Positions 7,832-27,310 of a DNA stretch of 28,705 bases are shown piece after piece. The translations under genes and the position numbers were made by a program. Under the pieces are notes generated by a model. The model made no database searches and was not told the origin of the DNA. It saw only the letters and a program-made list of their open reading frames with translations. The stretch is from a virus: positions 1-28,705 of the IMG/VR virus record IMGVR_UViG_3300035698_018724. One strand, written 5' to 3'. How positions within the stretch are numbered: position 1 is the first letter of the stretch; every line of letters begins with the position of its first letter.

Positions 7832-7860
7832 TTTACAAGCTTGCATGTTGGATGTAAAAG
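7832..7860 (+). promoter_or_regulatory. Promoter of the 7886 gene (TTTACA family)
   Basis: The -35 box TTTACA (7832-7837), a 17-base spacer and a weak -10 TAAAAG (7855-7860) precede the start codon by 25 bases. The context TTTACAAGCTTGCAT is nearly repeated at 27282, and TTTACAAGC also occurs at 20511 and, on the minus strand, at 18180. Function as a sigma70-like promoter is inferred from spacing and recurrence. Confidence 0.65.
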
Positions 7861-7885
7861 GGTCACATCAACAAGGAGACAAACA

Positions 7886-8275
7886 ATGCACATTCTGACA
7901 GACAAACTTCGTATGGACATTCAAGACGAAGCATCAGCTAGAGAATTCCTCAATGAGCTTTATGCTCAGCAGCTAGATTGGCATTTTGATGATGATCCTC
8001 ATGACTGCCTCAGCCACACGCCGCTGACCACGGAAGAAATCAATACCCTTGATGCTCAGAGGGAGCAGTTGTATTCTCTGCCTATCTTCGATGGCTCAGA
8101 CTGCCCATTTGGCTTACTGCGGAAACACCTCAAGGAACTTGCTACCTCAAGAAATTGGGATGGACCTTTGCAGACCGACGCGAGAGAGCTGTCGAATACC
8201 CTTCTGCTGCTGCAGCTCAAACAATTCATGACGGCTCCACACTATAAAGCTGCAGTTATTCAGCCTGATGATTAG
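7886..8275 (+). CDS. Plus-strand cassette (moron) protein, unknown function
   Basis: The 129-residue acidic protein (MHILTDKLRMDIQDEASARE) carries the segment LDWHFDDDPHDCLSHTPLTTEE. This resembles small phage proteins with a H/F-DDDP-x-D-----L-T-EE pattern, whose function is unknown. The ATG at 7886 is chosen because AAGGAGAC stands 6 bases upstream; the frame could extend to 7841 but that would overlap the promoter. It lies on the strand opposite to scaffold and capsid genes, with its own promoter at 7832 and a bidirectional terminator at 8307. This is the classic form of a moron inserted in a late operon. An anti-defence or host-takeover role is possible but unproven. Confidence 0.8.
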   Translation: MHILTDKLRMDIQDEASAREFLNELYAQQLDWHFDDDPHDCLSHTPLTTEEINTLDAQREQLYSLPIFDGSDCPFGLLRKHLKELATSRNWDGPLQTDARELSNTLLLLQLKQFMTAPHYKAAVIQPDD

Positions 8276-8306
8276 TTTTCTCTGCGTGTTGATAGCCTAG
8301 AGACGG

Positions 8307-8334
8307 AAAAGGGGAGCATCACTGCTCCCCTTTT
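8307..8334. terminator. Bidirectional terminator between moron and scaffold genes
   Basis: AAAAGGGGAGCA, loop TCAC, TGCTCCCCTTTT: a perfect 12-bp stem with A and T runs on both sides, so it can end transcription from the plus-strand 7886 gene and from the minus-strand scaffold gene. Confidence 0.9.
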
Positions 8335-8360
8335 CTATTTTAAGCTGCGCCACAGCGCGC

Positions 8361-9137
8361 TTATTTTTTACGTGCGTCCAAGCCCGCTTGAAGCAACTGA
8401 GTGGGTGACATGTCTTCACGGTTGACTGTACCCGGCCGCTTCTGCTGAGTTGGCTTAGTGCCTCGACGTTGACCAAAGCCGCTGTCTGCGTCACTCTCAA
8501 AGGCTACGCCGAAGTCTGTGCTCTCGCGCATCTCTGTGACCAAATCAGCAACTGCCATGAAGCCGCCTTTGCCATCGCCGCGATAATCACCTTCACCATC
8601 AGCGACACGAACGACATATTCTTCACCGTCCTTGACCAGCTTGACCTTGTCGCGAATAAGGGGCATGAGCAACGTTGAATTGCCTTTTGCATCAGCGATC
8701 GCCTTGACAGCTGCATTTTCGACCATATACTTTTCGAGGGTCTTCTGCATCGTGCCGTTGTTGTCGCGCTCCTTCTGAAGCTCGGCGTCAAAGGTCTTTT
8801 GGATGTCCGCTTTGATTTTTGCAGGATCGACCTTTGCGCCTTCTGCGATTGTGCCTTGCATTTCTGCGATCGCAGTTTTGGCTTCGTCGAGACTGTCAAA
8901 GCCGAGAGCTTCTTTCACCTGCTCCGCAACAGTCTTCTGGCCCTTGATGTCCTTGTTGGCGGTACGCTCTTTGGCAAGCGCGCCGGACAGTCCGGTGATT
9001 GCTTCTACCATGCCCTTGGCGGTTTCAGAGATGACATAGCTGCCATCTTTTTCCTCGTAGGCTGACTTGAAATTGGCCGGCACTTTCGCGTAGCCATCAG
9101 CCTCGAGTTCCATGTTTTTGGAAAAATCGAATTCCAT
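8361..9137 (-). CDS. Capsid scaffolding protein
   Basis: The 258-residue, highly charged and helical protein resembles GP20-type scaffolds: N-terminal DGYAKVPANFKSAYEEKDGSY, a coiled-coil middle (KERTANKDIKGQ, AEMQGTIAEG, LQKERDNNGTMQKTLEKYM), then AVKAIADAKGNSTLLMPLI and a basic C-terminus with KPTQQKRPG and LLQAGLDARKK. Scaffolds direct procapsid assembly and bind coat through the C-terminal basic end. The ATG at 9137 is chosen for its AGGAGA SD; a TTG 21 bases upstream is less likely. It follows the head morphogenesis gene and precedes (after the inserted moron) the capsid gene. Confidence 0.8.
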   Translation of the reverse strand: MEFDFSKNMELEADGYAKVPANFKSAYEEKDGSYVISETAKGMVEAITGLSGALAKERTANKDIKGQKTVAEQVKEALGFDSLDEAKTAIAEMQGTIAEGAKVDPAKIKADIQKTFDAELQKERDNNGTMQKTLEKYMVENAAVKAIADAKGNSTLLMPLIRDKVKLVKDGEEYVVRVADGEGDYRGDGKGGFMAVADLVTEMRESTDFGVAFESDADSGFGQRRGTKPTQQKRPGTVNREDMSPTQLLQAGLDARKK

Positions 9138-9198
9138 TTTATTCTTCTCCTTGGGCAATCTCTGCCACTATGTTAGCTTGAAGCATCACGCTACAAAC

Positions 9199-11463
9199 CT
9201 AGTCTTGCGCTGACCAGTTCGGATCGGAACCGAGGAACTGGCCTGCATTATCATACCATCCATCAGCTTCTGTCGGGAAGGGCAAGTGCTCGAGCTCCAA
9301 AGAGCCTTTCGCTTCTGACCCATCCATGAACTTCTGGACGACATAAATCTTGCCCTGCAGTAGCTGATACCGCAGTTTTGATTGAGCGTTCTTTAACTCC
9401 AAGCTTGTGGGTATAGAACCCTCATATGGCTTCTCAGTCTCTGTCGGGGACACAGACACTACGCCAGCAGCTGAAGCTGCTATCTGAGCCTGATTGAGCT
9501 TTGAGCGCCAACCGCGCACCATGTTAGCCGAAGTCTTTCCCTCTGGGAAAGCTTTTCGGACTATCTGAAGAACTGTTTTGTCGTTGAAGCCACGCCGCAG
9601 CAGAGCGACTGCGTAGGCTTCAGGAGTATTGCGGAAACTTTTGAGCAGCGCCTGAGCCCGCTTTATGTCCTCACGGAAAATAGATTTGAACAATAGTCCA
9701 CCTAGCCCCTGGCTAGTTACCGCGCTGTCCGTGATAGCAAAAGCCAGGACTTCAGCCGCGAGCTCATCAGGGCTAGACAGGTAGTAGGAATAGATATACC
9801 GCACCTCTGGGTTTGTCATTTTCTTAGCCTGCACAGCCATTTTGAGGCCGTAATCTTCCATCAACATGTGACCGAGCTCATGCCCTATAATCTGATGAGA
9901 CTGCTCATAGCTTAAGGTGTCAAGCTTGCGCTGGGAAATCTGAACGCCTTCACCCACTTTATAATAAGCATAGACGCCAGGCGATCCTTCAAGGTCAGGT
10001 TCAATCTCAGCCCACGCTCTACCTAGCGCAGAATACACATTCGGTAGGTTGGCCTTTAGGTCACTCTCAAATGTAGCCAAGGCAATCTTTGTGCCTACCG
10101 TGCCGGTCTGAGGAGTAGCTTCAAGGAACGAAAGAAGCCCTGCACTTTTCAGCGTGTATTTATAACTGGAAATAGACGCAGACGAAGTTTTGGCGTCTGG
10201 AAATTGCCGACGCACAGCTACAAGCACATCATCATTTGAAGCGCCAGCCATCAACATGCCTTTGGCAACCTGGCCAACCGTCGGTTCGACCACGTTCAAG
10301 GCGTCTCCTGCAAGCTCGGCTTCGAGCTCTTTGATTGACAGCTTGCGCCCTGACCGGTCGAAGAACCGCTCCGCCGGGGTTCCATTACGGAACATGTCCG
10401 CACGCTTCTTGCCTAGCACTTCATCCTGGAAATTCGCGGGCTGGGTCTTAAGCCAATCCTGATACCCCGTTGCTGCGGGCAATGTACCTACATTTTTGTC
10501 GGCCCACTCTTTCCTGATTTGCTGGATGGGGACGCCTCGCTTTTTTGCATCAGCTCGGAAATCAGCTTCACGCTTGGCGCGGGTTCGGGTATCTTTGACG
10601 AACGGCCTGGTTCCTGCGATCGCGACTCCGTCGAGGACTGCGACCATGAGCGAACGGCATTGAAAATGCGCAGGAGGACGTGCATCTGAAGGAGCCAGCA
10701 GAGGGCCTTCCAACGTGGGAGGTGGTTCAGAACCTCCTCGAATGACAGGGGCCAAGTGGCCGTCCCGGCTGACACATATATCGGAAGTTCTCCCGTCAAG
10801 GGTAGCAGTCCATCGTAGAGCTTTGACAATATCCGAGTTAGCATTCCATACCTCCTGTCTCGCTGCATTAGACACATGATTGATCGCTGTCCGTGCCAAC
10901 GCTTGAGCATTGCGGGTTGAAGTTCCCAATATGCCATCTTTGAAGTTGTTTGCGCGGGTGCCTCGAACTCGCTGTGTTAGCTGCTCAATCGTCTGCCCTT
11001 CAATCACAGCTATACGAACCGCGCGCTCGAGCTGAATGACTTCATCGGCCTCAATCTTGTTGAGCCAGCCGTCAAGCGTTATGCCCTGGATGGGATTATT
11101 GGCGACAGCTCGAATGAGCTCGATCGGAACAGCTGCAAGGTTGAGAGCTATAGGAGCCACGCCAGCTATGGCTGTTGCTTCCCATGCTGCTTCAACTCCA
11201 GACAGCGTTTTAAGCATCGCTGAGCTGTCTTTACCCATCGCGGCGTAGACCTTAGCTCTTTGCTCCCGAAGGGACACAAACAAGGCCTCAAGGCGTTTCG
11301 GGTCCGCTCCGCGCGCCATGGCCAGGGTGATTTGGTCGAGTAGGTCTTGCTCAGCCTCTTTTAGGATGTCTGCTATCCTGCGAGCTTCGCCCTCAGCAAA
11401 CCGGTAGAGATGGACCTGATGCCTGACAGAGGCGTCATATAGTTTCTGGTTCGCATTGGCCAT
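9199..11463 (-). CDS. Head morphogenesis protein (gpF-like) fused to HExxH metallopeptidase-like domain
   Basis: The 754 residues have several parts. Residues of about 140-275 form a Mu gpF/SPP1 gp7-like minor head domain (ARTAINHVSNAARQEVW, LRWTATLDGRTSDICVSRDG, RPPAHFQCRSLM). Residues 403-442 and 617-657 carry two copies of a short helical module (VRRQFPDAKTSSASISSYKYTLK and VRKAFPEGKTSANMVRGWRSKL in outline). Between them, residues of about 515-580 contain GHELGHMLME with HELGH at 528-532 and a downstream SPDELAAEVLAF, a pattern like zinc metallopeptidases with a third Glu ligand. No separate capsid protease was found, so the domain might process head proteins, or act on the host cell after ejection. 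The ATG at 11463 follows the portal stop by 6 bases, with AAGGAA upstream. Confidence 0.8.
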   Translation of the reverse strand: MANANQKLYDASVRHQVHLYRFAEGEARRIADILKEAEQDLLDQITLAMARGADPKRLEALFVSLREQRAKVYAAMGKDSSAMLKTLSGVEAAWEATAIAGVAPIALNLAAVPIELIRAVANNPIQGITLDGWLNKIEADEVIQLERAVRIAVIEGQTIEQLTQRVRGTRANNFKDGILGTSTRNAQALARTAINHVSNAARQEVWNANSDIVKALRWTATLDGRTSDICVSRDGHLAPVIRGGSEPPPTLEGPLLAPSDARPPAHFQCRSLMVAVLDGVAIAGTRPFVKDTRTRAKREADFRADAKKRGVPIQQIRKEWADKNVGTLPAATGYQDWLKTQPANFQDEVLGKKRADMFRNGTPAERFFDRSGRKLSIKELEAELAGDALNVVEPTVGQVAKGMLMAGASNDDVLVAVRRQFPDAKTSSASISSYKYTLKSAGLLSFLEATPQTGTVGTKIALATFESDLKANLPNVYSALGRAWAEIEPDLEGSPGVYAYYKVGEGVQISQRKLDTLSYEQSHQIIGHELGHMLMEDYGLKMAVQAKKMTNPEVRYIYSYYLSSPDELAAEVLAFAITDSAVTSQGLGGLLFKSIFREDIKRAQALLKSFRNTPEAYAVALLRRGFNDKTVLQIVRKAFPEGKTSANMVRGWRSKLNQAQIAASAAGVVSVSPTETEKPYEGSIPTSLELKNAQSKLRYQLLQGKIYVVQKFMDGSEAKGSLELEHLPFPTEADGWYDNAGQFLGSDPNWSAQD

Positions 11464-11469
11464 CTAGTC

Positions 11470-13026
11470 TCATTCCTTCTGAGGAGGCTTTTCCTCTTTG
11501 CCGACGCCTGGCTTTTTGTCTTCGAACAATCCTCCGAGAGCGCCATCTTCCCCTTCACCATCAGGAGCCTCAGCATCAAGTTCTTCTTTGTCAGCGTCAA
11601 TGTCAAACTCTTCAGGAAATACACCCCTGCGCTTCATCTCTTGCAAGTGAGCTTTGCGGCTTATATCCCGGCGGTCACGAGCCTTGTCGACGCTCGTCAA
11701 TTCAGGCTGATTGACAAGGTTGGCTTCGGCTTCGATGCTAAAGTTGACCTGGAGGTTATCACCTGCGTCTATTTTGAGCCACGCAGCAGTCAGCTCGAGA
11801 GCTTTTTTCATGGCATCTTTGAAGTCAAGTCCCCACGCCTGGAGAGGGCTAATCGCCTCGCCTTCGTCAAGGATGCGACCGGTCGCAGTATCTGGGCCAT
11901 TGGTCTTTTCGAGGAATGCTGAGCCATATGACGCCATCTTCTTTTCGAGCCGTTCAAGGTCTTTGTCGCCTGCCTCAATCGCTTTGCCTTCATGCTCGAT
12001 ATAGTAAATCTTGCCTGAAGGGTCTTTGACTGAGAGGAACTGACGCGGGCCAACAACAATCGTGTCAGCCTCTGTGCCTGAAATGCCTGAGCCACCTAGC
12101 ATAGGAAAGCGGGCAATCGTCAGGATGTTGTTTTGGTCAGAGGTTGACTGCCAGTGCCGCACATTGGTATGGGCCAGGTCAGTCAAAGGGCTTCGGCCGT
12201 AGCCAAGTCCTAACTTGTTTGTATAATAGGTCACAACTGGAATTTTACCTAGAGGGTTCACGCCCTCCTGGACCAGTTGCCATTTCGACTTGCCTGCGCC
12301 TTGTGTCTCTTTCTCCCAGGTTTCCCAGGTTGAAGGAGTAATGACTTTGACACGCTCAACAAGCTTTTCGCCCCATTGACCGTCCTCCACAAGCTCATTG
12401 TCAATGAACCGTACCTGAGACAGCTGCATAACTCCTGCGACCCGTGCCCAGCTCATGCTGATCATATCAGTTGCAGGGATGAGACGCCAGAAAGGCCCTG
12501 CACCTTCTTTGAGGTCATCAGCCAGGTTCCGCTTGCGCCCATCTTCAGGCTCCTTGAGCACTGGAAAATCGACAAGCACGTGGCTCAAAGCGTCTCGCAC
12601 GCCGAACCGAAACCACTCACGGCAGAAAGGAGCGAACGCTGTTCCCTCCATATCGATGTTCTCAGCCAAGTCCAAAAGCTTCTGTGGAACTGTGTCCCCC
12701 ATGACAGGAGGCTCTTTGAACGCTTTACCCACAAGAGAATTCAACGTTCGCAGGGTCTCATTGTCGAGAACAGTCTGTGCCAGGCGTTCATTGTAGGCTC
12801 CATTGTCTTCATACGCGTGCTGAGGCAGGTAGTCTTTGCCTGCTTCGCGCATAGCTTCAGTTCCGCCGATCACTGTCATGATGAGTGACTGGTTTGCAGC
12901 CATAGAGTTATAAGCCGCATTTGGCTTTGCTACAGCTGAATTGTCAGGTGCTGCAGCTGCCGCTTTTGACTTCGCGATCGGCTTGCCACGTTTATTGCCG
13001 GTATGGGTATTTTGATTGTCGGCCAA
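11470..13026 (-). CDS. Portal protein, DUF4055
   Basis: The 518-residue protein matches the DUF4055 portal family: MTVIGGTEAMREAGKDYLPQ, YNERLAQTVLDNETLRTLNSLVGKAF, FGVRDALSHVLVDFP, and PVVTYYTNKLGLGYGRSPL with DLAHTNVRHWQSTSDQNNIL. The C-terminus is acidic with a Lys/Pro tail. It forms the DNA channel at the capsid vertex and docks the terminase. The start appears to be a TTG at 13026, preceded by AGGAG at 7 bases; no ATG in the right place was seen. The first 40 residues are basic and low-complexity. It is followed by the gpF-like head gene and preceded by a plus-strand cassette that separates it from TerL. Confidence 0.9.
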   Translation of the reverse strand: MADNQNTHTGNKRGKPIAKSKAAAAAPDNSAVAKPNAAYNSMAANQSLIMTVIGGTEAMREAGKDYLPQHAYEDNGAYNERLAQTVLDNETLRTLNSLVGKAFKEPPVMGDTVPQKLLDLAENIDMEGTAFAPFCREWFRFGVRDALSHVLVDFPVLKEPEDGRKRNLADDLKEGAGPFWRLIPATDMISMSWARVAGVMQLSQVRFIDNELVEDGQWGEKLVERVKVITPSTWETWEKETQGAGKSKWQLVQEGVNPLGKIPVVTYYTNKLGLGYGRSPLTDLAHTNVRHWQSTSDQNNILTIARFPMLGGSGISGTEADTIVVGPRQFLSVKDPSGKIYYIEHEGKAIEAGDKDLERLEKKMASYGSAFLEKTNGPDTATGRILDEGEAISPLQAWGLDFKDAMKKALELTAAWLKIDAGDNLQVNFSIEAEANLVNQPELTSVDKARDRRDISRKAHLQEMKRRGVFPEEFDIDADKEELDAEAPDGEGEDGALGGLFEDKKPGVGKEEKPPQKE

Positions 13027-13098
13027 TCTGGCTCTCCTGGAAAATCTCGAAGCCGACCAATGCCATGCTTAAGATGCCTGCAGAGCCGTCATTGAAAC

Positions 13099-13114
13099 TA
13101 TAGCCATGGCTATA
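13099..13114. repeat. 16-bp palindrome (TATAGCCATGGCTATA), putative operator
   Basis: A perfect palindrome whose 12-bp core is repeated at 2047, 15937 and 27251 and in shorter form at 20488. Here it lies 9 bases upstream of the -35 box at 13124, sharing the arrangement palindrome, AAAATA and TTTACA with the site at 20488. It is a candidate binding site for a phage or host dimeric regulator. Confidence 0.65.
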
Positions 13115-13123
13115 AAATAACTG

Positions 13124-13152
13124 TTTACATAGCTTGGGAAAAAGCATATCGT
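13124..13152 (+). promoter_or_regulatory. Promoter of the 13178 gene (TTTACA family)
   Basis: TTTACA (13124-13129), a 17-base spacer and TATCGT (13147-13152). It stands 25 bases before the start codon of the plus-strand gene, the same distance as at the 7886 gene. The palindrome at 13099-13114 lies just upstream. Confidence 0.65.
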
Positions 13153-13177
13153 CAGATTATCAACATGGAGACAACCG

Positions 13178-13381
13178 ATGACTGCTACACTTCGAGCTAC
13201 CAAACAGATGCAATGCGACGAGGAACGCCTCGTCAAAATCATCAAGAGCAACGCGCCAACTGAGGATGATATTGCTTTTCTGCAAGCCCTCAAGAGCCGT
13301 GTGCCTTTCACTCTGCGCTGCACTATCAACGTGGCAATTGCTATAGCTGAATTTGACAAATTTATTGAAGGCAAAAGCTGA
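13178..13381 (+). CDS. Small plus-strand cassette protein, unknown
   Basis: The 67-residue protein (MTATLRATKQMQCDEERLVK) is not recognised. It is helical in outline, with a central CDEERLVKIIKSNAPTEDDIAFLQALKS-like stretch and a more hydrophobic second half (CTINVAIAIAEFDKF) that is too charged to be a clear membrane segment. ATGGAGAC stands upstream as SD. It lies between TerL and portal, opposite to both, with its own promoter and palindrome, and so resembles the 7886 cassette. No strong terminator was found in the 61 bases before the TerL stop. Confidence 0.7.
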   Translation: MTATLRATKQMQCDEERLVKIIKSNAPTEDDIAFLQALKSRVPFTLRCTINVAIAIAEFDKFIEGKS

Positions 13382-13442
13382 TGCCTATTTTCAATAGCAC
13401 ATCCAACTTGGTGGAAAGATTGGAAACCTACCGTAGGCCGAG

Positions 13443-15913: not shown

Positions 15914-16135
15914 TCATGCTGCCATTCCCAGGAATGTAGCCATGGCTACTAATACTGAGGAGGCCATACACATGAGGCCTGTGACCTGCATCGTGCGGCG
16001 CTGGCATTCAGGACTGGTCCTGGGCTTTGCTCGCTTTGCTGCGTGAAATATGCCAAAGCCAATCACCCCGATTAGTGTTGCTATTCCATAGAAGCCATAT
16101 GTTACAGCCGCCTCAATTAGTCCCATTTGATCCAT
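15914..16135 (-). CDS. Two-segment small membrane protein, holin-like
   Basis: The 73-residue protein has two hydrophobic segments, AAVTYGFYGIATLIGVIGFG (about 9-28) and GLMCMASSVLVAMATFLGMA (about 53-72), with a basic hinge (HAAKRAKPRTSPECQRR). Two segments in about 70 residues with a short N-terminus resembles class II holins, though no lysin gene is next to it and the place beside terminase genes is unusual. The ATG at 16135 overlaps the end of TerS by 23 bases; the longer frame upstream lies inside TerS and is not used. TAGCCATGGCTA (15937-15948) lies near its 3' end. Confidence 0.6.
   Translation of the reverse strand: MDQMGLIEAAVTYGFYGIATLIGVIGFGIFHAAKRAKPRTSPECQRRTMQVTGLMCMASSVLVAMATFLGMAA
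15937..15948. repeat. TAGCCATGGCTA palindrome near the 3' end of a CDS
   Basis: An exact 12-bp copy of the palindrome found before plus-strand promoters. It lies 24 bases before the stop of the holin-like gene and codes for VAMAT, as the copy at 2047 does. Confidence 0.6.
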
Positions 16136-17337: not shown

Positions 17338-17675
17338 TCGTTAGTGACTGCAAGGGCTTTACTGGCTTGAACAGCAGCGCACCGCTTCAAATGAACAAGG
17401 CACACGTCCTCACGATGAGCTTCTCTGTTGATAATCTCCAAAGCCTCCCGTAACATAGCAACCTGCTCGACTAGCGGAATATCCTGCTCGGGCGCAGGTG
17501 TCTCAGGGTCGTATGCATCTATGTCAAGCCTACAGACGTCTTCTCCGATGCAAAGCTTGCGCCTTGCCTCTATGACACGCTTGATGTGGGCGTGGTTGAC
17601 GATGAGCTTGATTGATCCATATCCGATCACTCTCGCTCCATTGCTGTTGTCAACTTCTAGGGCTGAACGGCTCAT
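17334..17675 (-). CDS. Unknown 113-aa protein
   Basis: The protein starts MSRSALEVDNSNGARVIGYG, with a basic helix (AHIKRVIEARRKLCIGEDVCRL), an acidic proline-rich hinge (AYDPETPAPEQDIP) and a C-terminal helix (QVAMLREALEIINREAH) followed by CLVHLKRCAAVQASKA. Four cysteines are present but not in a known zinc-finger spacing. ATGA overlaps occur at both ends. No family recognised. Its position suggests it is expressed with the 141-aa module protein. Confidence 0.6.
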   Translation of the reverse strand: MSRSALEVDNSNGARVIGYGSIKLIVNHAHIKRVIEARRKLCIGEDVCRLDIDAYDPETPAPEQDIPLVEQVAMLREALEIINREAHREDVCLVHLKRCAAVQASKALAVTNE

Positions 17676-18097
17676 GCGCTTTTACGGCGCATTGAGACTT
17701 TCTTGCCCGCCTTCCGCATGTCTGAGGCAATCGAGGCAACAGACCGCGCTGTGGTCTTAGCTTCGGGGTATGCCTTGAGGACCGCAGCCACAATGACAGC
17801 GTATGGAGCATCATCGGCAAGCAGAAGCTCACGGCAGAGCCCAGTGATTTTTCCGCGGTTGGTATCAGCCTTCTTCTTCGCAGGCTTTTTGAGCTGAGCA
17901 GCTCCATGCAATTCTGCCAAATCGATCGCAAGGGCATCGATTTCTGAGGTGGGCACACCGATGAACTTTTCGAATGACTGTTTGGCCAGTTTCTTGAGTT
18001 CCATAAGAACCTGGAAGTTACCTTCCCGATCCTCGAGTGCCCGAGTAGTATCACGGGCAAAGCCGAGTGCGCGCTTCGCTTCTGTTTTGCGTGACAT
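17672..18097 (-). CDS. AKT-module protein, first gene of the leftward run
   Basis: The 141-residue basic protein (MSRKTEAKRALGFARDTTRA) has a helical N-terminal half with KKPAKKK near 70-76, and a C-terminal module at about 87-131: LCRELLLADDAPYAVIVAAV, LKAYPEAKTTARSVASIASDMRKAG in outline. The module recurs in the head protein (twice) and the AAA+ ATPase. It looks like a small helix-turn-helix and the basic tail (MRRKS) suggests nucleic acid binding. The ATG at 18097 is chosen because CGGAGA lies upstream; it is the first gene after promoter 18180-18152. Its place next to the candidate origin would suit a regulator or origin-binding protein, but this is inference. Confidence 0.7.
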   Translation of the reverse strand: MSRKTEAKRALGFARDTTRALEDREGNFQVLMELKKLAKQSFEKFIGVPTSEIDALAIDLAELHGAAQLKKPAKKKADTNRGKITGLCRELLLADDAPYAVIVAAVLKAYPEAKTTARSVASIASDMRKAGKKVSMRRKSA

Positions 18098-18151: not shown

Positions 18152-18180
18152 GGTATAAGCCGCAAGAACCTGCTTGTAAA
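18152..18180 (-). promoter_or_regulatory. Leftward promoter (TTTACA family)
   Basis: On the minus strand, TTTACA (18180-18175), a 17-base spacer, and TATACC (18157-18152). The upstream AAAATAG and the TTTACAAGC core match the plus-strand promoter at 20511. It is placed to drive the 18097 gene and those after it, 55 bases before the start codon. Confidence 0.65.
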
Positions 18181-18237
18181 TGGTCTATTTTCAGCGCTGG
18201 GCGAAAAGGCTCGAAAAAGGCTCTTTATTAGCAACTT

Positions 18238-18269
18238 TTGCTATTTGTTAATATATTAACAAATAGCAA
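18238..18269. repeat. 32-bp perfect AT-rich palindrome
   Basis: TTGCTATTTGTTAATA followed by its exact reverse complement, with no spacer. It lies 58 bases upstream of the leftward -35 box. The lack of a loop favours a dimeric protein operator over a terminator, though cruciform formation at an origin is also possible. Confidence 0.9.
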
Positions 18270-18378
18270 TCAAACTATTAAAAAACTACCAGGTCCGAGG
18301 TTTTCCCGCATGTTGCAAAAACAGCCCATAAGCCCTTGAAAACAAAGGGAAAAAAAGTATTAATGCCTTTTTTCCCTC

Positions 18379-18447
18379 CCTAAGTCGCTGTAAACGTTGA
18401 CCAATTTCTTAAGGACTTAAGGACAAATAGCCTAAGTTGTTGTAAAC
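18379..18447. repeat. Two 17-bp direct repeats (CCTAAGT-G-TGTAAAC)
   Basis: Copies at 18379-18395 and 18431-18447 match at 15 of 17 bases. Each is followed by a block of GGACTTAA or its reverse complement. On the minus strand each contains GTTTACA, the -35 sequence of the promoter family, but the -10 positions are poor, so they may be iterons or weak promoters. Confidence 0.7.
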
Positions 18448-18597
18448 AAAGGATTACTTCCAATGGGTCCTTAAGTCCTTAAGTCCTTAGAGTAAGTTCA
18501 TAATATATCATTTAAGTATATTTAGCATATATAAGTTGCTAAATCTACTTAAATGATTTTATATGGAAACTAGCCCTGGACTTAAGGACTTAAGGAC
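18408..18597. repeat. GGACTTAA iterons in a 20-bp perfect inverted repeat
   Basis: Three clusters of the 8-mer GGACTTAA or its complement occur: 18408-18425 (forward), 18467-18490 (reverse) and 18578-18597 (forward). The 20 bases at 18467-18486 and at 18578-18597 are exact reverse complements separated by 91 bases, which in turn hold another hairpin. The 8-base period suggests an initiator or regulator that binds in arrays. Confidence 0.85.
18507..18557. repeat. 20-bp hairpin nested inside the iteron inverted repeat
   Basis: Arms 18507-18526 and 18538-18557 (ATCATTTAAGTA and its complement at the outer ends) pair at 19 of 20 positions, with an 11-base AT loop. It is centred close to the middle of the outer inverted repeat, giving a two-level cruciform-capable structure. 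Confidence 0.85.
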
Positions 18598-18673
18598 ATT
18601 GAAACATAATTACGAAAAGGCCAGCTGGGTTCAGGGCCTGGTTTACGATATGCATCCTTAAAAATGCTGGCAC

Positions 18674-18702
18674 TTTCAGCCAATCCATAGCCTAAATATG
18701 TT
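18674..18702 (+). promoter_or_regulatory. Candidate rightward promoter
   Basis: TTTCAG (18674-18679), a 17-base spacer and TATGTT (18697-18702), 35 bases ahead of the 18737 gene. It is weaker than the TTTACA family and lacks its flanking pattern, but it is the best match by eye. Confidence 0.35.
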
Positions 18703-20482: not shown

Positions 20483-20487
20483 GCGCC

Positions 20488-20497
20488 AGCCATGGCT
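20488..20497. repeat. AGCCATGGCT palindrome core upstream of a promoter
   Basis: A 10-bp core of TAGCCATGGCTA that continues to the right as ATAAAATA, as at 13099. It lies 13 bases before the -35 box at 20511. Confidence 0.6.
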
Positions 20498-20510: not shown

Positions 20511-20539
20511 TTTACAAGCTTTATTTATCAGTGTAGGAT
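20511..20539 (+). promoter_or_regulatory. Promoter of the 20590 gene (TTTACA family)
   Basis: TTTACA (20511-20516), a 17-base spacer and TAGGAT (20534-20539), 50 bases ahead of the start codon. AAAATAGAGGGTTTACAAGC closely matches the minus-strand site ending at 18175. Confidence 0.7.
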
Positions 20540-20589
20540 AACTGAGCGCGCTAATGCGCTTCAACAAATAAGACGGAGACTATTGTGAT

Positions 20590-21105
20590 ATGTTTACGAA
20601 ACCAGAAAACTACAATCCAAACGGCACGGTCCTCAATGCAACAGGCTTGAAAGTTTCAGGAGTAGCGAGCGAGCTCGGCCTCATTCTTCTCTCAGCTATG
20701 ACCCAGGGGAATACGCACTCGCCAGCTACTGGCCGAGGCAATTTAATCAAAGCTGAATTGCTCAGCGGAAAACATCCCTACCTGAACTTCACTGACGAGC
20801 AAATTGGCGAAATCGAAGATGGCTTGTGGTACACAATCATGTTCGGCAACGGCTTTATGACTGAGGGCTTCAAAAACCGCCTCGATGCAGAGCGCGCATT
20901 GCTTCTCAACCTGGTTGGGCTTAAAGCAAATCAAGCTGACGACGAAGCTGAAGCTTTCATCAACAGCCTTTTGACGGCGGCGCCTACCCGGCCAGGGCAA
21001 ACAAAAGCTGATGCCCGGTACGAAAAGCTTAGTCAGGCCAAAAAGCCCATGTGGATGAAACGCGGGCTTTCTTCTATTAAAGCCTGGTTGATTTCAGGTG
21101 GCTGA
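20590..21105 (+). CDS. Unknown 171-aa protein
   Basis: The protein (MFTKPENYNPNGTVLNATGL) has a segment SGVASELGLILLSAMTQGNT, GKHPYLNFTDEQIGEIEDGL and a helical end with LDAERALLLNLVGLKANQAD and QAKKPMWMKRGLSSIKAWL. No family recognised. It has its own TTTACA promoter and an ACGGAGAC SD 9 bases before the ATG. It converges with the primase-helicase gene on the other strand, with 92 bases between them and no clear terminator. Confidence 0.7.
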   Translation: MFTKPENYNPNGTVLNATGLKVSGVASELGLILLSAMTQGNTHSPATGRGNLIKAELLSGKHPYLNFTDEQIGEIEDGLWYTIMFGNGFMTEGFKNRLDAERALLLNLVGLKANQADDEAEAFINSLLTAAPTRPGQTKADARYEKLSQAKKPMWMKRGLSSIKAWLISGG

Positions 21106-21197
21106 GATGATTGCCATGCCCGGTGACGCCTCGACCTCTGCTCCGCGCTCCCATCCAGTACCAGCAGCCATTATCCCCTTTCTATATGCAATAGTAG

Positions 21198-23678
21198 TCA
21201 TTCCAAATCATCCCATACTTCAACGTTGCTATCCAGGTCAATCACAGATGGCTCGTCATTTCCGTTGCCTTCCAGGTTATCCCACACCAGGCGCTGGCCA
21301 ATCTGCTGTTCGAACATAAGGCGGCATTCGCCCAGGAGCGGAAAGACATAGCCGTAGCATCGGCCATCCGTGAAGGTTTTAAGGTCTCCCCGGTCTTTCG
21401 GCGGCTTGGCACGTACCTTCTTCAATCCTGTCACGCGCTTGAGCAACCGGCTGCCTATCAGAAAATCCATCGACCGTCGACCAAAATACCTGTCACCTGC
21501 TTTGCGCAGGTATGTTTCCAGGCTGTCTTTGATGTCCTCGACCGCGACGATGATGTAGTCGTGGGCATCTTCCTTGAGGCTCAACGGGTCTGTTTCCCAA
21601 TCGCCGAACACAACGCCTTTTTCGTCGGTAGCGTCCCCAGTGCAAAGGCATTCGTACCACCAACTGTCGAAGTTGTCCAGCGAGTGGATTTTCTGCTCGG
21701 CAAGCGCTTTGGTTTGAGGAATACTTTGGCGTGGGTGATAGTCTTTGATGTCCCGAGTTTTCAAGTCGAACAGCAAGCCTTGAAGTCCGCCATTGTCAAG
21801 CTGCTTGTATAGAGCATCAAAGAACTTTTTGTCCCCTCTGAACTTGTCTGAGGCTTCGGTTATCATGAAGCGGCGTTCATCCTCCATAGAGGCTGGGACG
21901 ACCCAGTCCTCATTTGAGGCCATTCCGACGTGCAGATAGTTACGCCCCATGATTGCGTCTTTGCCCTTGCCCTCAAACATGATTGTGGGTTCAGTGATTA
22001 AGCGCTTGAGTTCGCCCTCAGCCTTCTTGTCGCCCGCCCACATAGCTTCATCGACAAACAGGAACACGCAGTCCCTGAGGTGAGAGTTGAAGTGGTTTGT
22101 AAAATGGTGCTGATGGCTGACGTGCATTCCGTGCCGGCCGGATAAGTTGGCAAGAGCCCTGAAGAACGTGCCTTTGCCCGAGCCTTTTGCTCCCTTAACG
22201 ATGAGCGCGACTTCAGCCGGCTTGTCAGGGTTCTGCACCATAAAGGCAGCCCAGTCAAGCATATACTTGTAGGCTTCCTCATCATCGTCGCAGAGCCCTT
22301 CCAGGATGAGCTGGTCGAGTAAGGACCAATCGCCTTTCTTCGGCTCCACTGCCCAGTCAGTCCATAGGTTGAGGACATTGGCTTTGGCAGGTATCGCGTT
22401 GGCAGGGTCAAATGCCACGCCGTCGTAACTAGTCCGCTTCCCCCATTTGAGCCACTCAACAGCGAGAGGCACGACGGTCGCTTTGTCCCCTACCGTTTTC
22501 TGGATGCGAATATTCGACAGGATGTCCATGAAGTCATTCTTCTTCTGGACCTCCCAGAATTCGCGGGGACCATCTGGCCAGGTATAGTCGACCTTTTTCC
22601 GGTATATCCGAAAGGTCCCGTTTTCGTTGACAGCCGCGTAGCCTTTCGCATTCAATGCCTCGAGAGGTCCAGACGTTGGGGCTCCTTCTGGCAAGGTGGT
22701 GATGATGTCAAGCAGGTCGGTATCATCCTCGGAAGTGTTGTCATATTCCTTGGTATTGAAATCTGCGGGAGGACCTCCGAAATCGTCTTGGGCAGTGTCC
22801 CGAGGGATAAGGTTGCTATTGCCTGCTTCCGTCAGAGCTTTGTACAAAGTCCGCTCGGTTACCCGCCGGCCTGTTTGATCGACGTGGAGACTATCCCAAC
22901 GGCGACCGATGAGCCAGGCGTCTTTCGCGTATTGATGATCTGAGGTAGACCATTCGAGGAACTCGTCTCGGCCTTCGCCAGCAGTCGCATGGTGGCAAGC
23001 CATCATGATTTCTAGCCAGGCAGTGTGGTCTTGATACTTGGTTGGGTCAAGCCCTTCGAGCATGTCTCCGAGTTGCTCAGCAGAGTATTTTCCCGCATCA
23101 ACCGTAACTGTTCGGCCAGGTCTTCTTGCGATTTCGATAAGACACGAGGGAGCTGCATGTAATCCCTCCATCCCAACGGCGAGCGGATCGTCTGACCAGA
23201 GGTACGGCTCTTTTGTGTCGGGATGGACAGAGCCTGGAGCGACAACCTGGCGCCCGAGAGCTTTGAACTCAACGCCCTGATACGCCTCGAGAGTGTCTCG
23301 AAGCTGTTCATGCTCTGGCTTGAGCATGTAAATATGCAATCCGCCAGAGCCTGTGATGACGGTAGGGTATTCTGAGAAGTCAATGCCAAGGTCTTTCTCC
23401 ATACGGGTAATTGGATCGTCGCCCTGTTCAAAGTTGCGAGGGTCCACATCAATAACAAGGTCGCAAGGCCGCATCCTCACTCCGATGTTAGCGTCTTCGA
23501 GATGCTCGAGCGCTTCGTCAAAAGTGAGAGGATGGTCTTTTCGCCATCCTTTATGAGGGGCTTTACCTATAGCACGACCTTTTTGATCGAGAGCGTTAGG
23601 AGTGTGCAGAGGAATAAGCTCATGTCCGCTTGTCTTGAACGCGTTGAGCTGGTCAGGCTTGAATTTCCATTTACTCAT
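21198..23678 (-). CDS. Primase-helicase: prim-pol domain plus SF3 (DUF5906) helicase
   Basis: The 826-residue replication protein has an N-terminal bifunctional primase/polymerase domain with LVIDVDP (catalytic DxD at 77-79), GSGGLHIYM (110-118) and FKALGRQVVAPGSVHP. The middle contains a linker, and the helicase half carries Walker A GAKGSGKGT (496-504), Walker B VFLFVDEA (538-545) and a later SNEDWVVPASMEDERRF with sensor and arginine residues, typical of the D5/P4-like superfamily 3. The C-terminal region (IKDSLETYLRKAGDRYFGRR, then KRVTGLKKVRAK) resembles a winged helix. It would prime and unwind DNA at the origin. The ATG at 23678 has GGAGAC upstream. It is the only minus-strand gene in the rightward half. 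Confidence 0.9.
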   Translation of the reverse strand: MSKWKFKPDQLNAFKTSGHELIPLHTPNALDQKGRAIGKAPHKGWRKDHPLTFDEALEHLEDANIGVRMRPCDLVIDVDPRNFEQGDDPITRMEKDLGIDFSEYPTVITGSGGLHIYMLKPEHEQLRDTLEAYQGVEFKALGRQVVAPGSVHPDTKEPYLWSDDPLAVGMEGLHAAPSCLIEIARRPGRTVTVDAGKYSAEQLGDMLEGLDPTKYQDHTAWLEIMMACHHATAGEGRDEFLEWSTSDHQYAKDAWLIGRRWDSLHVDQTGRRVTERTLYKALTEAGNSNLIPRDTAQDDFGGPPADFNTKEYDNTSEDDTDLLDIITTLPEGAPTSGPLEALNAKGYAAVNENGTFRIYRKKVDYTWPDGPREFWEVQKKNDFMDILSNIRIQKTVGDKATVVPLAVEWLKWGKRTSYDGVAFDPANAIPAKANVLNLWTDWAVEPKKGDWSLLDQLILEGLCDDDEEAYKYMLDWAAFMVQNPDKPAEVALIVKGAKGSGKGTFFRALANLSGRHGMHVSHQHHFTNHFNSHLRDCVFLFVDEAMWAGDKKAEGELKRLITEPTIMFEGKGKDAIMGRNYLHVGMASNEDWVVPASMEDERRFMITEASDKFRGDKKFFDALYKQLDNGGLQGLLFDLKTRDIKDYHPRQSIPQTKALAEQKIHSLDNFDSWWYECLCTGDATDEKGVVFGDWETDPLSLKEDAHDYIIVAVEDIKDSLETYLRKAGDRYFGRRSMDFLIGSRLLKRVTGLKKVRAKPPKDRGDLKTFTDGRCYGYVFPLLGECRLMFEQQIGQRLVWDNLEGNGNDEPSVIDLDSNVEVWDDLE

Positions 23679-23883
23679 GTCAGGTTTAGTCTCCAGGTCA
23701 ATTTGTTTGGATACAATGAGGCAGCGAGCTGTTTCAAGCCACCAACGTGGAGACGTTAAATACGTACATTTATATAGGCTTCGACGCCATCGTGCTTTTT
23801 CTCAAGTGATGGTTACTCTTAATCTAATTCCCAAGCAGTTACTGGGCATCAAACAAATCGACCTCGAAACCATGGAGACACCT

Positions 23884-24291
23884 ATGTCAATTGAAGACAA
23901 TCTGAAAACACTCGCCGAAAACTCGACCCGCATTGCTGATGCACTTGAAGCTATGCTCTCAAGCTCTTCCACTGCCGGATTGGTTGCTGACGAAAAGCCG
24001 GTTGAGGAAAAGCCGGTTGAGAAAAAGCCGGTTGAAAAGAAGCCGGTTGAGAAAAAGCCGGTTGAAAAGAAGGTTGACCCGCTCGACGATGCTCCAGACG
24101 ATGAACCAAAAATCGACAAGGAAGATGTCCGCAAAGCTTTGATGAACTATCGTGACATTGAAGGCTCGCCGGCTATGCTTGAGCTGCTCGCTGAACACGG
24201 TGACGGAGCTTCAGGCATCAAGGACCTGGATGAGGCCTTCTTCGCCAAGGTCCACACCGCAGCGATCAAAGGGCCAAAAAAGAAGAAGTAG
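23884..24291 (+). CDS. Lys/Glu-repeat protein of the recombination cluster
   Basis: The 135-residue protein has an N-terminal helix (MSIEDNLKTLAENSTRIADA), a flexible linker of EKPVE/KKPVE repeats (about 37-61), and a C-terminal fold with KEDVRKALMNYRDIEGSPAM, LAEHGDGASGIKDLDEAFFA and a lysine tail. Phage proteins with this layout, in which DVRKAL begins a helical module with an L--GA----L domain, often lie beside DUF2815 and DUF2800 genes, as here. Exact function unknown. The ATG at 23884 follows CATGGAGAC; the longer upstream frame is not used. The 205 bases before it hold no promoter I could call with confidence. Confidence 0.75.
   Translation: MSIEDNLKTLAENSTRIADALEAMLSSSSTAGLVADEKPVEEKPVEKKPVEKKPVEKKPVEKKVDPLDDAPDDEPKIDKEDVRKALMNYRDIEGSPAMLELLAEHGDGASGIKDLDEAFFAKVHTAAIKGPKKKK
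23992..24066 (+). repeat. Five 15-bp tandem repeats encoding (K/E)KPVE
   Basis: Units of GAAAAGCCGGTTGAG with changes at three positions are repeated five times, followed by a partial unit. The copies are nearly identical in silent positions, so the linker expanded recently by slippage. Confidence 0.9.
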
Positions 24292-24334
24292 TTTTTCGCT
24301 CGACGTCTACCACTCATCAAATAGGGAATAGGAT

Positions 24335-24676
24335 ATGATGACCACCTTATATTATCTACTCGACCTGATAGCTAATTGGCTACCAGGCAACAAATCGGAC
24401 CCAACTTCTTTTGAAGCGCGTGTCCGAGCGGCAGCGAGTGCCAAGTCGTCCATTATTGACCAGGCCATTGTCAAATTCAGCGCTGAAATCGACGCGGTGC
24501 AGGCTGAAGCCAAAGCCCGTGTCGATGGCATCCGCACGTTGATGGAAACTGCGTCTCATGAGCTTGATGTTTTGAGCAAAGCGGACGGAGTGCTTCCACC
24601 AAAAGAAGCAGCAGGAGCTGAAAAGCTTCAGGCTGGCGTGGTGAAAAGCCTTGACGTGTCGAAGCCAAAAAGCTGA
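24335..24676 (+). CDS. Unknown coiled-coil protein, 113 aa
   Basis: MMTTLYYLLDLIANWLPGNK begins with a short hydrophobic helix that could associate with membrane but is too short for a firm transmembrane call. A charged helix follows (SFEARVRAAASAKSSIIDQA, FSAEIDAVQAEAKARVDGIR, TLMETASHELDVLSKA). The gene follows the Lys/Glu-repeat gene and its stop overlaps the next start as TGATG. It starts at 24335 (or 24338). No family recognised. Confidence 0.65.
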   Translation: MMTTLYYLLDLIANWLPGNKSDPTSFEARVRAAASAKSSIIDQAIVKFSAEIDAVQAEAKARVDGIRTLMETASHELDVLSKADGVLPPKEAAGAEKLQAGVVKSLDVSKPKS

Positions 24677-24813
24677 TGGACAACGGTGATGAAGATATTC
24701 ATGACCTTGGGGTGAAGGGAAAGATTTTTCCTATACTGGCCACCGCGTTCGGGCAAGAAGTTTCAATCAATAATGTGCGCATTACTTTCCCACAGACTAC
24801 GGAGACCCATTAA
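24676..24813 (+). CDS. Small 45-aa ORF
   Basis: The ATG at 24676 overlaps the preceding stop by one base and the stop at 24811-24813 lies one base ahead of the next start, so the ORF exactly fills the gap. It reads MDNGDEDIHDLGVKGKIFPI, then LATAFGQEVSINNVRITFPQ and TTETH. The tight packing, and the GGAGAC SD of the next gene lying within its last codons, support it as real. Function unknown. Confidence 0.5.
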   Translation: MDNGDEDIHDLGVKGKIFPILATAFGQEVSINNVRITFPQTTETH

Positions 24814-24814
24814 C

Positions 24815-26257
24815 ATGGCAAAACATGCCCGCCTTTCAGCGTCAGGTTCAAAGCGCTATATAAACTGCAAGGGCTCAATCGCTTTTTGCGACAGCCTTCC
24901 GAGTGAAATGCGATCGGGTACCAACCCAGCTGCTCAGACCGGAACTTGTGCCCACGCTGTTGGCGAGCAATGCCTGGCTGATGGCAAATTGACATCCGCA
25001 CATCTTGAAGGCAAGCTGGTTTGGATAGACGCCCAGGAAGATGCTCACATATGCAATTTGACTGCGGAGCAATCAGAGAAATTCGTGAAGGCCTCCAATG
25101 GCGCTTTGGCGGCTGAGATTGGGGAAGATGTACAGTTCTTCTGCGAGATTGATGACCGCATGGTTGAAGGCGTCGATGTCTATCTGGACACTATCTGGGA
25201 AGACTGGACGAAGCTCGGACGAGATGTTACCGAGATGTCCATCGAACGCGGTTTTGATCTGTCCTGGCTACGTCCAGAGATGTTCGGCACCTCAGACTGC
25301 ACGCTATACCAATTTATGGGCCGGCTGGCTGTCTACGACTATAAAAACGGTCGTGTTGACGTCGAAGTCAAGGGCAACACCCAGGGGATGTATTATGCCC
25401 TTGGTATGGCCCACGAAGTTGACTGGCTGTTTGAAGACGTGGAAATTGTCGTTGTCCAGCCAAATTCCTATCATGAGGATGGCAAAGTCCGGCGATGGGT
25501 TATCACAAAAGAGCAGCTAAAGGCATTTGAGAAAATGCTTGGTGAAGCCCATGACGAAGTCCAGCAAGCAATCACCGAGATGGACTGGGTTGATGATGAC
25601 GCTAGCTTTCTGGAATGGTGTGAAAAATGGCTCAGTGTCGGAGACGATGGCGACCACTGCACCTACTGCGACGGGCTCAACACTTGCCCCGTTGCGCGTC
25701 AGAAAGTCGCAGACATTGCCAAAACCGATTTTGCGACCTGCAATGAAGACCCAAAAGAAAGGGAAGTAGACTTGTCAGACCATACCCCCGAAGACATTCA
25801 ACGCCTGGCTGAAGTTTTAACCTGGACGCCCTTCCTTGACAGACTTGTCAAGTCAGCGGCAGCGTTGGCAGAAAAGCGTTTGAGTGCCGGCAAACCGGTT
25901 CCAGGACGTAAGATGGTGTCCGGCAAAGCCAACCGATCGATGGACCTGGATGCGGACACTCTTCTCAAAGAGCTGAAAAAGCGCAAGATTAAAGTCCTGA
26001 AGAAAGACCTCTACGAGCCGGTCAAAGCCAAAAAGGTGAAATCACCTGCTCAGCTTGAAAAGATTTCGAAGGAAGTCAAGTCTCACATCCAGGGCGTTTG
26101 GGACGAGGACATGGACTGCTGGGCAGTTACGCCATTGGCCACGAAAAACTATGGCAAGCCCACTGTGGTTCCTGAGAGCGATCCGCGCAAAGCGCTTGAG
26201 CTCAGCGCCAAAAATGACTTTGAAGAGGACGATGAAGATTTTGTCCCTCCATCGTAA
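24815..26257 (+). CDS. DUF2800 PD-(D/E)XK nuclease
   Basis: The 480-residue protein opens ARLSASGSKRYINCKGSIAF, the standard DUF2800 start, with GTCAHAVGE (His47) next. GTSDC (Asp161) and VYDYKNG (Asp175, Lys177) form the PD-(D/E)XK core and NTQGMYYALG the Q/Y helix motif. A late set of cysteines (WCEKW and HCTYCDGLNTC) may hold an iron-sulfur cluster, as in RecB/Cas4-like nucleases. It is probably an exonuclease in phage recombination, acting with the DUF2815 protein. The ATG at 24815 has ACGGAGAC 8 bases upstream; the 14 codons before it are not used. Confidence 0.85.
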   Translation: MAKHARLSASGSKRYINCKGSIAFCDSLPSEMRSGTNPAAQTGTCAHAVGEQCLADGKLTSAHLEGKLVWIDAQEDAHICNLTAEQSEKFVKASNGALAAEIGEDVQFFCEIDDRMVEGVDVYLDTIWEDWTKLGRDVTEMSIERGFDLSWLRPEMFGTSDCTLYQFMGRLAVYDYKNGRVDVEVKGNTQGMYYALGMAHEVDWLFEDVEIVVVQPNSYHEDGKVRRWVITKEQLKAFEKMLGEAHDEVQQAITEMDWVDDDASFLEWCEKWLSVGDDGDHCTYCDGLNTCPVARQKVADIAKTDFATCNEDPKEREVDLSDHTPEDIQRLAEVLTWTPFLDRLVKSAAALAEKRLSAGKPVPGRKMVSGKANRSMDLDADTLLKELKKRKIKVLKKDLYEPVKAKKVKSPAQLEKISKEVKSHIQGVWDEDMDCWAVTPLATKNYGKPTVVPESDPRKALELSAKNDFEEDDEDFVPPS

Positions 26258-26528
26258 GGCAAGTGGCTTGACTGCACAAGAGCAGTCAGACCAGCAAGTC
26301 AGACAGTTCATTCATGATCGAGGCGCCCTGGGTGAGTCCCTGGTAGTCCCGCTCATGATTGTCTGGCACGAATACGAAAACTATATGGGCAGCAGAGAGG
26401 TAACTGCCCGTGCATTTCGACGATCGCTCGAGGCAATACCCTGGTGCGTGATCGAAAACCGGCCGAATGCCCGCGGCAAATTTAAGACGGTGGTAACTGG
26501 GCTTGGGCTCAAACCAACGGCACCTTAA
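26232..26528 (+). CDS. Winged-helix-like small protein, 98 aa
   Basis: The gene starts within the last 26 bases of the nuclease gene. The protein MKILSLHRKASGLTAQEQSD has MIVWHEYENYMGSREVTARA, FRRSLEAIPWCVIENRPNAR and KFKTVVTGLGLKP. The order helix-helix-basic hairpin and the closing G-GL pattern resemble the winged helix at the C-terminus of D5/P4-type primases, so it may be a DNA-binding accessory protein. The start is not certain: ATG at 26214 is another option, and 26232 has AGAGGA only a few bases upstream. Confidence 0.55.
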   Translation: MKILSLHRKASGLTAQEQSDQQVRQFIHDRGALGESLVVPLMIVWHEYENYMGSREVTARAFRRSLEAIPWCVIENRPNARGKFKTVVTGLGLKPTAP

Positions 26529-26625
26529 TTTGCCAAAAAGCATAAGGTCATTTTTCGCTTTCAGCAATGGTGAGGAAAGCGAAGGCTCGTTGATGGGCCA
26601 TTTTGTAAAAAGGAAGCCAGTTGTT

Positions 26626-27189
26626 ATGGCATTTAAGAAACTCGTTACCCCGGTATTCAGGGCATCGTTCCCCAAAGTTTTCACTCCTGAAAGCTTCGAC
26701 GGTGGTCCACTGAAATACAGTGTGTCTGCAGTCTGGGACCCAAGCCGCTTCACGAAGAAAGAGAAAGAGCTCTGGCAGGCAATGCTTGACTTGGCTGATG
26801 ACGTGTCTGTTGACATGTTCAAAAAGAAAATTGCCGATTTGCCTGGCAACGTCAAAACTCCTCTGCGTGACGGTGAAGAAAAAGCTGACCTCGAAGGCTA
26901 CGGTGAAGGAACTATGTTCTGCAACCTGTCGTCCAAGATGCAGCCTGGCATCATCGACAAAGACCGCAATGACATCCTGGATGCAAGCGAATTTTATCCT
27001 GGCTGCTATGCTCGTGCCACCATTTCGGCGTACGCGTATGACAACAAGGGCAAGGGCGTTGCATTCGGTCTGCAGAATTTGCAGAAAGTCGCGGATGGCG
27101 ATCGCCTTGACAGTCGCACTGAAGCATCGGAAGACTTCGATGAAGCAGACGACGATCGCTGGGGTTCGTCTGACCCTCTTGACGATTAA
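26626..27189 (+). CDS. DUF2815 ssDNA-binding-like protein
   Basis: The 187-residue protein has the DUF2815 pattern: MAFKKLVTPVFRASFPKVFT, YSVSAVWDP, a helical middle (KKEKELWQAMLDLADDVSVD), LPGNVKTPLRDGEEKADLEG, ASEFYPGCYARATISAYAYD and GKGVAFGLQNLQKVADGDRL, then an acidic tail (EASEDFDEADDDRW and DPLDD) as in single-strand DNA-binding proteins. The start at 26626 is chosen by the family N-terminus; the frame continues further upstream to 26593. SD is AGGAAG. It lies beside the DUF2800 nuclease, the usual pair, and ends before a strong terminator. Confidence 0.85.
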   Translation: MAFKKLVTPVFRASFPKVFTPESFDGGPLKYSVSAVWDPSRFTKKEKELWQAMLDLADDVSVDMFKKKIADLPGNVKTPLRDGEEKADLEGYGEGTMFCNLSSKMQPGIIDKDRNDILDASEFYPGCYARATISAYAYDNKGKGVAFGLQNLQKVADGDRLDSRTEASEDFDEADDDRWGSSDPLDD

Positions 27190-27216
27190 AGTCTGAAGTC
27201 CTCAACAGACACAGAG

Positions 27217-27249
27217 AATGCCCGGCCAGGAAACTGGTCGGGCATTTTT
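27217..27249 (+). terminator. Intrinsic terminator after the DUF2815 gene
   Basis: AATGCCCGGCCAG, loop GAAA, CTGGTCGGGCATT with one G-U pair, then a T run (13-bp stem). It closes the 23884-27189 gene group before the next promoter. Confidence 0.92.
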
Positions 27250-27250
27250 G

Positions 27251-27262
27251 TAGCCATGGCTA
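27251..27262. repeat. TAGCCATGGCTA palindrome before the AAA+ gene
   Basis: An exact 12-bp copy directly after the terminator, 19 bases before the -35 box of the promoter at 27282. The spacing is about 7 bases longer than at 13099 and 20488. Confidence 0.65.
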
Positions 27263-27281
27263 TTTATTTTTATTTAGGGTG

Positions 27282-27310
27282 TGTACAGCTTGCATAGACC
27301 TATGCATAAG
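27282..27310 (+). promoter_or_regulatory. Promoter of the AAA+ gene (TTTACA family)
   Basis: TGTACA (27282-27287), a 17-base spacer and CATAAG (27305-27310). The preceding TATTTTTATTTAGGG and following GCTTGCAT match the 7832 promoter almost exactly. It is 31 bases before the start codon. Confidence 0.65.

Follow-up and report, generated by a model that had tools for sequence, protein, structure and literature searches.

Introduction

The early promoters of phage T4 have GTTTAC at positions -36 to -31 and, at -40 to -44, a UP-like region rich in A (PMC1524935, PMC2988021); they combine UP, -35, TGn and -10 elements and compete well for the host polymerase (PMC2988021). In T4 middle promoters, GCTT occupies positions -30 to -27 (PMC1524935). 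Here we analyse five promoter-like sites in a 28.7 kb virus record (hereafter the window, meaning the whole of this stretch of DNA) that comes from an uncultured siphophage and is probably a fragment. Among described types, these sites come closest in sequence to the T4 early promoter, which they resemble in having a G followed by a TTTAC(A) -35 box, an A/T-rich upstream region, a -10 box and an association with small novel genes. T4 itself has GGTTTACA-17-TAnnnT sites, none of them with GGGG, and the T4-like phage SP18 has two GGGGTTTACA sites. Nevertheless, up to five G residues precede TTTACA in the window, as opposed to the single conserved G of T4 early promoters, and weak -10 boxes stand without a TGn element. 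Moreover, the carrier is a siphophage with Rhodobacter-phage relatives, whereas T4 early promoters belong to the Straboviridae. Since the strong -10 and TGn elements are lacking and the carrier is not T4-like, we do not class these sites as T4 early promoters; a T4-type Alt protein was not seen in the fragment either. They also share with the UP-element promoters of the Escherichia coli rrnB P1 type an A/T-rich block 5' of the -35 box, at the alpha-CTD position, but differ from them by the G tract between the UP region and the -35 box and by being phage-specific. We found no description of such a G-extended -35 box in the open-access literature searched.

Gene content of the window

The minus strand encodes the tape measure, tail, capsid, scaffold, portal, and large and small terminase proteins, and the right half of the window carries primase, exonuclease, SSB and AAA+ genes. 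The closest named terminases are those of the Rhodobacter phages RcRudolph and RcSimone-Hastad (65%), followed by those of DLP4/AAT-1-type phages (61%), with RcRudolph having the closest named large subunit, TerL (65%). The closest viral contigs (L005 to L008) also stand at 65%. Two repeated features were observed in the predicted proteins. A P-[EDG]-[AG]-K-T stretch followed by a helix-like segment (e.g., AVLKAYPEAKTTARSVASIASDMRKAGK) occurs four times in three different phage proteins, encoded at 9199-11463 (two places), 17672-18097 and 27342-28472, and is also present in relatives. In the small gene preceding the exonuclease gene, a 15-base tandem repeat (23994-24072) encodes KPVEK/KPVEE.

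Five sites sharing an extended sequence

The first-pass annotation had proposed five sites made of TTTACA or TGTACA, exactly 17 bases and a weak -10 box, and we recovered each of them at the same position and on the same strand. Four lie on the plus strand: promoter 1 (7832..7860, TTTACA-N17-TAAAAG), preceded by TTTATTTAGGGGG (7819-7831); promoter 2 (13124..13152, TTTACA-N17-TATCGT), preceded by TATAAAATAACTG; promoter 3 (20511..20539, TTTACA-N17-TAGGAT), preceded by AAAATAGAGGG; and promoter 4 (27282..27310, TGTACA-N17-CATAAG), preceded by TTTATTTAGGGTG and containing within its spacer the inverted repeat TGCATAG-AC-CTATGCA. The fifth, on the minus strand (18152..18180, TTTACA-N17-TATACC), is preceded by GAAAATAGACCA, with no G run. 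The -10 boxes have only four of six matches to TATAAT and no TGn, and the layout is of the sigma-70 type (hexamers 16-18 bp apart, 5' of a start codon), with a 17 bp spacer in all five cases. Four of the promoters are followed 54-83 bases downstream by a Shine-Dalgarno sequence and a start codon, and the other one by an ATG 79 bases downstream. The sequences, their spacing and their position 5' of start codons are thus direct observations.

The similarity among the sites extends beyond the hexamers. Immediately 5' of the -35 box, all five have AAAATA or TTATTTTTATTTA, an A-rich, UP-like region; the flank reads TTTATTTAGGGnG at 7832 and 27282 and AAAATAG/A at 13124, 20511 and 18180. The base directly before TTTACA or TGTACA is G in four sites and A at 18180. 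Downstream, the leader is ATCAACA..GGAGAC at 7832, 13124 and 27282, and TTCAACA..GGAGAC at 20511. These upstream flanks agree with the earlier description, which had also made GCTT a general feature of the family; we found GCTT after the -35 box in the four plus-strand sites only, not at 18180. Its presence there might recall a MotA-like box and hence promoters of the T4 middle type, which also have GCTT (PMC1524935). However, in most sites it lies about 2 bases closer to the -10 box, it is absent from 18180 and from the sites of other phages, the -35 hexamer is retained, and we recognised no MotA relative in the window, so that this reading appears hardly credible.

Support within the window

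TTTACA and TGTACA occur 22 times on the two strands of the window, and only the five sites combine them with a -10 box of at least 4/6 matches at a spacing of 17. Both strands of the window (~57,000 positions) were scanned with a position matrix trained solely on sites of other phage contigs. Ranks 1 to 5 were exactly the five sites, in the order promoter 3, 1, 2, 4 and 5, with scores of 26.0, 18.0, -1.4, -4.7 and -6.5, and a clear gap separated them from the sixth position (-12.7). The mean score of the best position in simulated sequences was -6.5. By score alone, the sites at 13124, 27282 and 18180 are therefore weak, lying close to, and not above, what simulated sequences can reach. In addition, the search patterns were derived in part from the sites at 7832 and 27282, for which the outside support is not fully independent.

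A generic sigma-70 scan of the window yielded 17 promoter-like sites for 14.8 expected, i.e., no excess, and the evidence therefore comes from the shared extended sequence and not from the hexamers alone. This result and the weak -10 boxes would fit a set of ordinary, unrelated host-type promoters, alike merely through their sigma-70 hexamers, with a family read into noise. Yet the common sequence reaches well past the hexamers, a matrix built from other phages puts exactly these five sites first, which already disfavours such an explanation, and relatives hold lineage-specific families of the same build (see below). We consider it highly improbable. On sequence grounds, it is very probable that all five are genuine phage promoters and form one family.

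A promoter build widespread in uncultured phages

The same build recurs in other phages, which supports the proposal of a single promoter family. The pattern TTAGGGGGTTTACA-N16-18-TATNNT was found in at least 120 stretches of viral contigs, versus 7 for its mirror image. Bacterial genomes totalling 257 Gb gave just 17 scattered matches in unrelated taxa; we took these as chance and discarded a bacterial source of the motif. Although spacers of 16-18 were allowed, the spacer was 17 in 86 of the 95 distinct TTAGGGGGTTTACA sites among the viral matches listed. An exact TATAAT was found at a distance of 17 in 55 of these 95 sites and of 16 in five, and at no other distance between 8 and 25. The consensus of this viral class is approximately AAA..ATTTAGGGGGTTTACAAAcc..aaATatGGTATAATA, and the TGn element TATGGTATAAT, missing from the window sites, is typical of those of other phages. 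The block TTTATTTAGGGnGTnTACA is present in unrelated viral contigs, several of them with many copies of the core, and among 178 sites of the same contigs that the search seed does not fit, 70 have runs of 3-6 G residues before TTTACA. Lone matches in a contig may be due to chance; many contigs hold several, up to 16 in single contigs and in some cases on both strands. The position of the sites is also that of promoters: of 142 GGGTTTACA-17-TAnnnT sites, 87% are intergenic and 62% have a ribosome-binding site (Shine-Dalgarno) and a start codon 35-130 bases downstream, while for positions drawn at random from these contigs the values are 13% and 14%, respectively. The extended -35 box is thus present in many phages and not in bacterial genomes. 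According to these searches, uncultured tailed phages commonly have promoters composed of an A/T-rich stretch, a G run, TTTACA, 17 bases and a TATAAT-like box, a type that bacterial genomes almost completely lack.

The carriers include T4-like phages (whose DnaB-like helicase, DNA polymerase and SbcC-like proteins are closest to those of T4-type phages), a contig encoding a tape measure of the siphophage type (L180) and another with a portal of the CRP-3-type roseophages (L247). Two contigs (L108 and L116) have repeated ATTTAGGGGGTTTACAnCCnCCTTTTTTTATGGTACAAAGGTGTATAAGTTAA elements, which make up a very long conserved promoter block. Among named phages, the searches made for a GGGGTTTACA or GGGTTTACA promoter site found none in the T4-like KVP40, RB49, P-HM1, Melnitz and HTVC008M or in the roseophages SIO1, CRP-3, CRP-235 and DSS3phi2, and blastn of the promoter against named phages gave weak matches only (E 0.08 to 10), including the T4-like VR20, SP18 and Acinetobacter phage 133.

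The near absence of the block from bacterial genomes is what recognition by a phage-only factor predicts, and a phage-encoded RNA polymerase or alternative sigma factor reading the A/T-GGGGG-TTTACA block would also accommodate the weak -10 boxes of the window. Nevertheless, the wider class has TATAAT at exactly 17, the classical sigma-70 layout, and we recognised neither an RNA polymerase gene nor a sigma gene within the window, although this record is a fragment. We regard a dedicated phage factor as very unlikely.

Promoters of the close relatives

Three of the closest contigs (L005, L006 and L008) have two or three promoters each of their own, of the form GTTGGGAAAAATGCAAATAGGGGG-TTTAC(A/G)-N17, the third site of L006 being TTTACT, and three others (L012, L016 and L034) have GG-TTTACA-N17-TATTCT. 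A divergent promoter pair lies in relatives between the terminase side and the relative of gene 17672-18097. In two of them (L005:1480-1700 and L008:2287-2400), near-identical GGGGG-TTTAC promoters stand back to back between modules, and this pair is a candidate bidirectional control region. These sites imply that every lineage maintains a few similar promoters whose upstream module is peculiar to that lineage; in the window, this module includes a palindrome. The absence of a GGGGTTTACA site from Rhodobacter phage RcSimone-Hastad and other named relatives counts against the explanation that we propose below.

Genes behind the promoters

Morons are self-transcribed gene insertions within phage structural operons. 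Two cassettes of the window are similar to them. Behind promoter 1, an orphan gene of 129 amino acids (7886..8275, plus strand) lies antisense between the major capsid and scaffold genes and is closed by a strong hairpin terminator, AAAAGGGGAGCA-UCAC-UGCUCCCCUUUU (8305..8336; -24.2 kcal/mol, z -7.0). Behind promoter 2, an orphan gene of 67 amino acids (13178..13381, plus strand) lies antisense between the terminase and portal genes. The capsid-scaffold gap measures 719 bases in the window versus about 233 in L005 and 191 in RcSimone-Hastad, and the terminase-portal gap 416 versus about 90 and 68, respectively. Since the flanking structural genes are adjacent in relatives, we interpret both genes as insertions, and in this respect the inserted cassettes proposed by the first-pass annotation hold for these two. 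Like morons, each holds one orphan gene under a promoter of its own, placed between late genes that are adjacent in relatives, and one of the two also has a strong terminator; the features by which a moron is recognised (own promoter, own terminator, absence from the same junction in relatives) are all found in cassette 7886-8275. They differ from morons in their antisense insertion and in having a promoter common to other genes of the same phage, and their carrier is not demonstrably temperate.

Promoter 3 precedes an orphan gene of 171 amino acids (20590..21105, plus strand) that converges on the primase gene. The searches made found no convincing homologues for the proteins of this gene or of the two cassettes. 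Promoter 4, located after the SSB gene, precedes an AAA+ ATPase gene (27342..28472, plus strand; phrog_1250, function unknown), and promoter 5 precedes a gene of 141 amino acids (17672..18097, minus strand) with a C-terminal domain conserved in relatives. The tie between the family and replication genes that had been suggested is consequently weak: one site stands before the AAA+ gene and another, 18180 on the minus strand, before a small gene beside an origin-like region, but none was found in the window before the primase or exonuclease genes. This region (18200-18700) is non-coding, lies between divergent genes, is A/T-rich (64% versus 49%) and contains direct and inverted copies of CTTAAGGAC/GTCCTTAAG at 18408, 18416, 18467, 18475, 18581 and 18589; in its sequence it looks like a replication origin.

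An apparently lineage-specific palindrome

As the first-pass annotation had noted, a palindrome or its core precedes three of the sites, and we found it far above chance. Promoter 2 has the 16-base perfect palindrome TATAGCCATGGCTATA (13099..13114; centre 17.5 bp 5' of the -35 box), promoter 3 the core AGCCATGGCT (20488..20497; 18.5 bp) and promoter 4 the palindrome TAGCCATGGCTA (27251..27262; 25.5 bp), directly preceded by a terminator-like hairpin that follows the SSB gene (27216..27248, plus strand; -26.4 kcal/mol, z -7.0). The window contains four exact copies of TAGCCATGGCTA (2047, 13101, 15937 and 27251) and one with a single mismatch (20487); allowing up to two mismatches, there are 8 copies for 0.77 expected, a number that none of 100 shuffles reached. 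Two exact copies missing from the earlier list, one in a gene (2047..2058) and one in an ORF (15937..15948), encode Val-Ala-Met-Ala-Thr on the minus strand, with no family promoter nearby. We rejected the palindrome as a transcription terminator, its RNA hairpin being weak (z about -1.4).

The other two promoters have inverted repeats of unrelated sequence: AATAAAAAT-N5-ATTTTTATT, made of A and T only, at promoter 1 (7802..7824; centre 19 bp 5' of the -35 box), and the 8-base palindrome CAGCGCTG at promoter 5 (18192..18199; 15.5 bp). Inverted repeats of some kind are thus found 15-26 bp 5' of all five -35 boxes, and none of 2000 shuffles was equally strong, a result that local A/T richness may inflate.

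The first-pass annotation took the five sites for a regulon that ties the inserted cassettes to replication genes. On such a view, a phage-encoded dimeric regulator would bind TAGCCATGGCTA at three promoters and co-ordinate the two sets of genes. The number of copies, their location at -50 to -60 in the three promoters, where the distal part of a UP element would lie, and the inverted repeats before all five -35 boxes speak in favour of it. However, the distance from the palindrome centre to the promoter varies by 8 bp, which is most of a helix turn, promoters 1 and 5 lack the palindrome, two exact copies lie in coding DNA, and we recognised no regulator gene in the fragment. The promoters of the six relatives compared (L005, L006, L008, L012, L016 and L034) are also devoid of the palindrome, and a combined palindrome and TNTACA pattern gave 64 matches in viral contigs, none with a G run and one in a contig that matches a window protein over a short stretch. 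The palindrome itself is real, and by this distribution it looks lineage-specific, an addition upstream of three promoters and at best a candidate operator. A regulon controlled through it seems rather unlikely; the proposed tie of cassettes to replication genes has partial support, in that two of the promoters precede inserted orphan genes and one precedes the AAA+ gene.

A proposed phage module for host RNA polymerase

We find it likely, from sequence comparison, that the five sites form one family of phage promoters of the sigma-70 type, used by the host RNA polymerase and most probably early in infection. In this family, an A/T-rich stretch in the position of an UP element (about -40 to -57) is followed by a G tract (up to GGGGG) that extends the -35 box upstream directly before TTTACA, then by exactly 17 bases, a -10 box of the TAnnnT type, a short ATCAACA leader and the ribosome-binding site GGAGAC. 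The host sigma-70 and alpha-CTD would read this upstream G and A/T module, which may help the phage to compete for polymerase as in T4 early promoters. In this phage, copies of the module would drive small transcription units that stand apart, the two antisense, moron-like orphan cassettes among them.

More tentatively, and with a probability that we place well below even, the A/T-rich block and GGGGG directly before TTTACA could be an element found only in phages, one that has spread through unrelated tailed phages and is absent from bacteria. Its contact with alpha-CTD, sigma region 4 or a factor of the phage would give phages an advantage over host promoters, and in this lineage the palindrome would act as a further, phage-specific switch. 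If the G-extended -35 box is indeed a phage-specific promoter grammar, it would provide a sequence handle on early genes, often anti-host ones, in uncultured phages. It would also help to place orphan cassettes and would raise the biochemical question of what reads the G tract.
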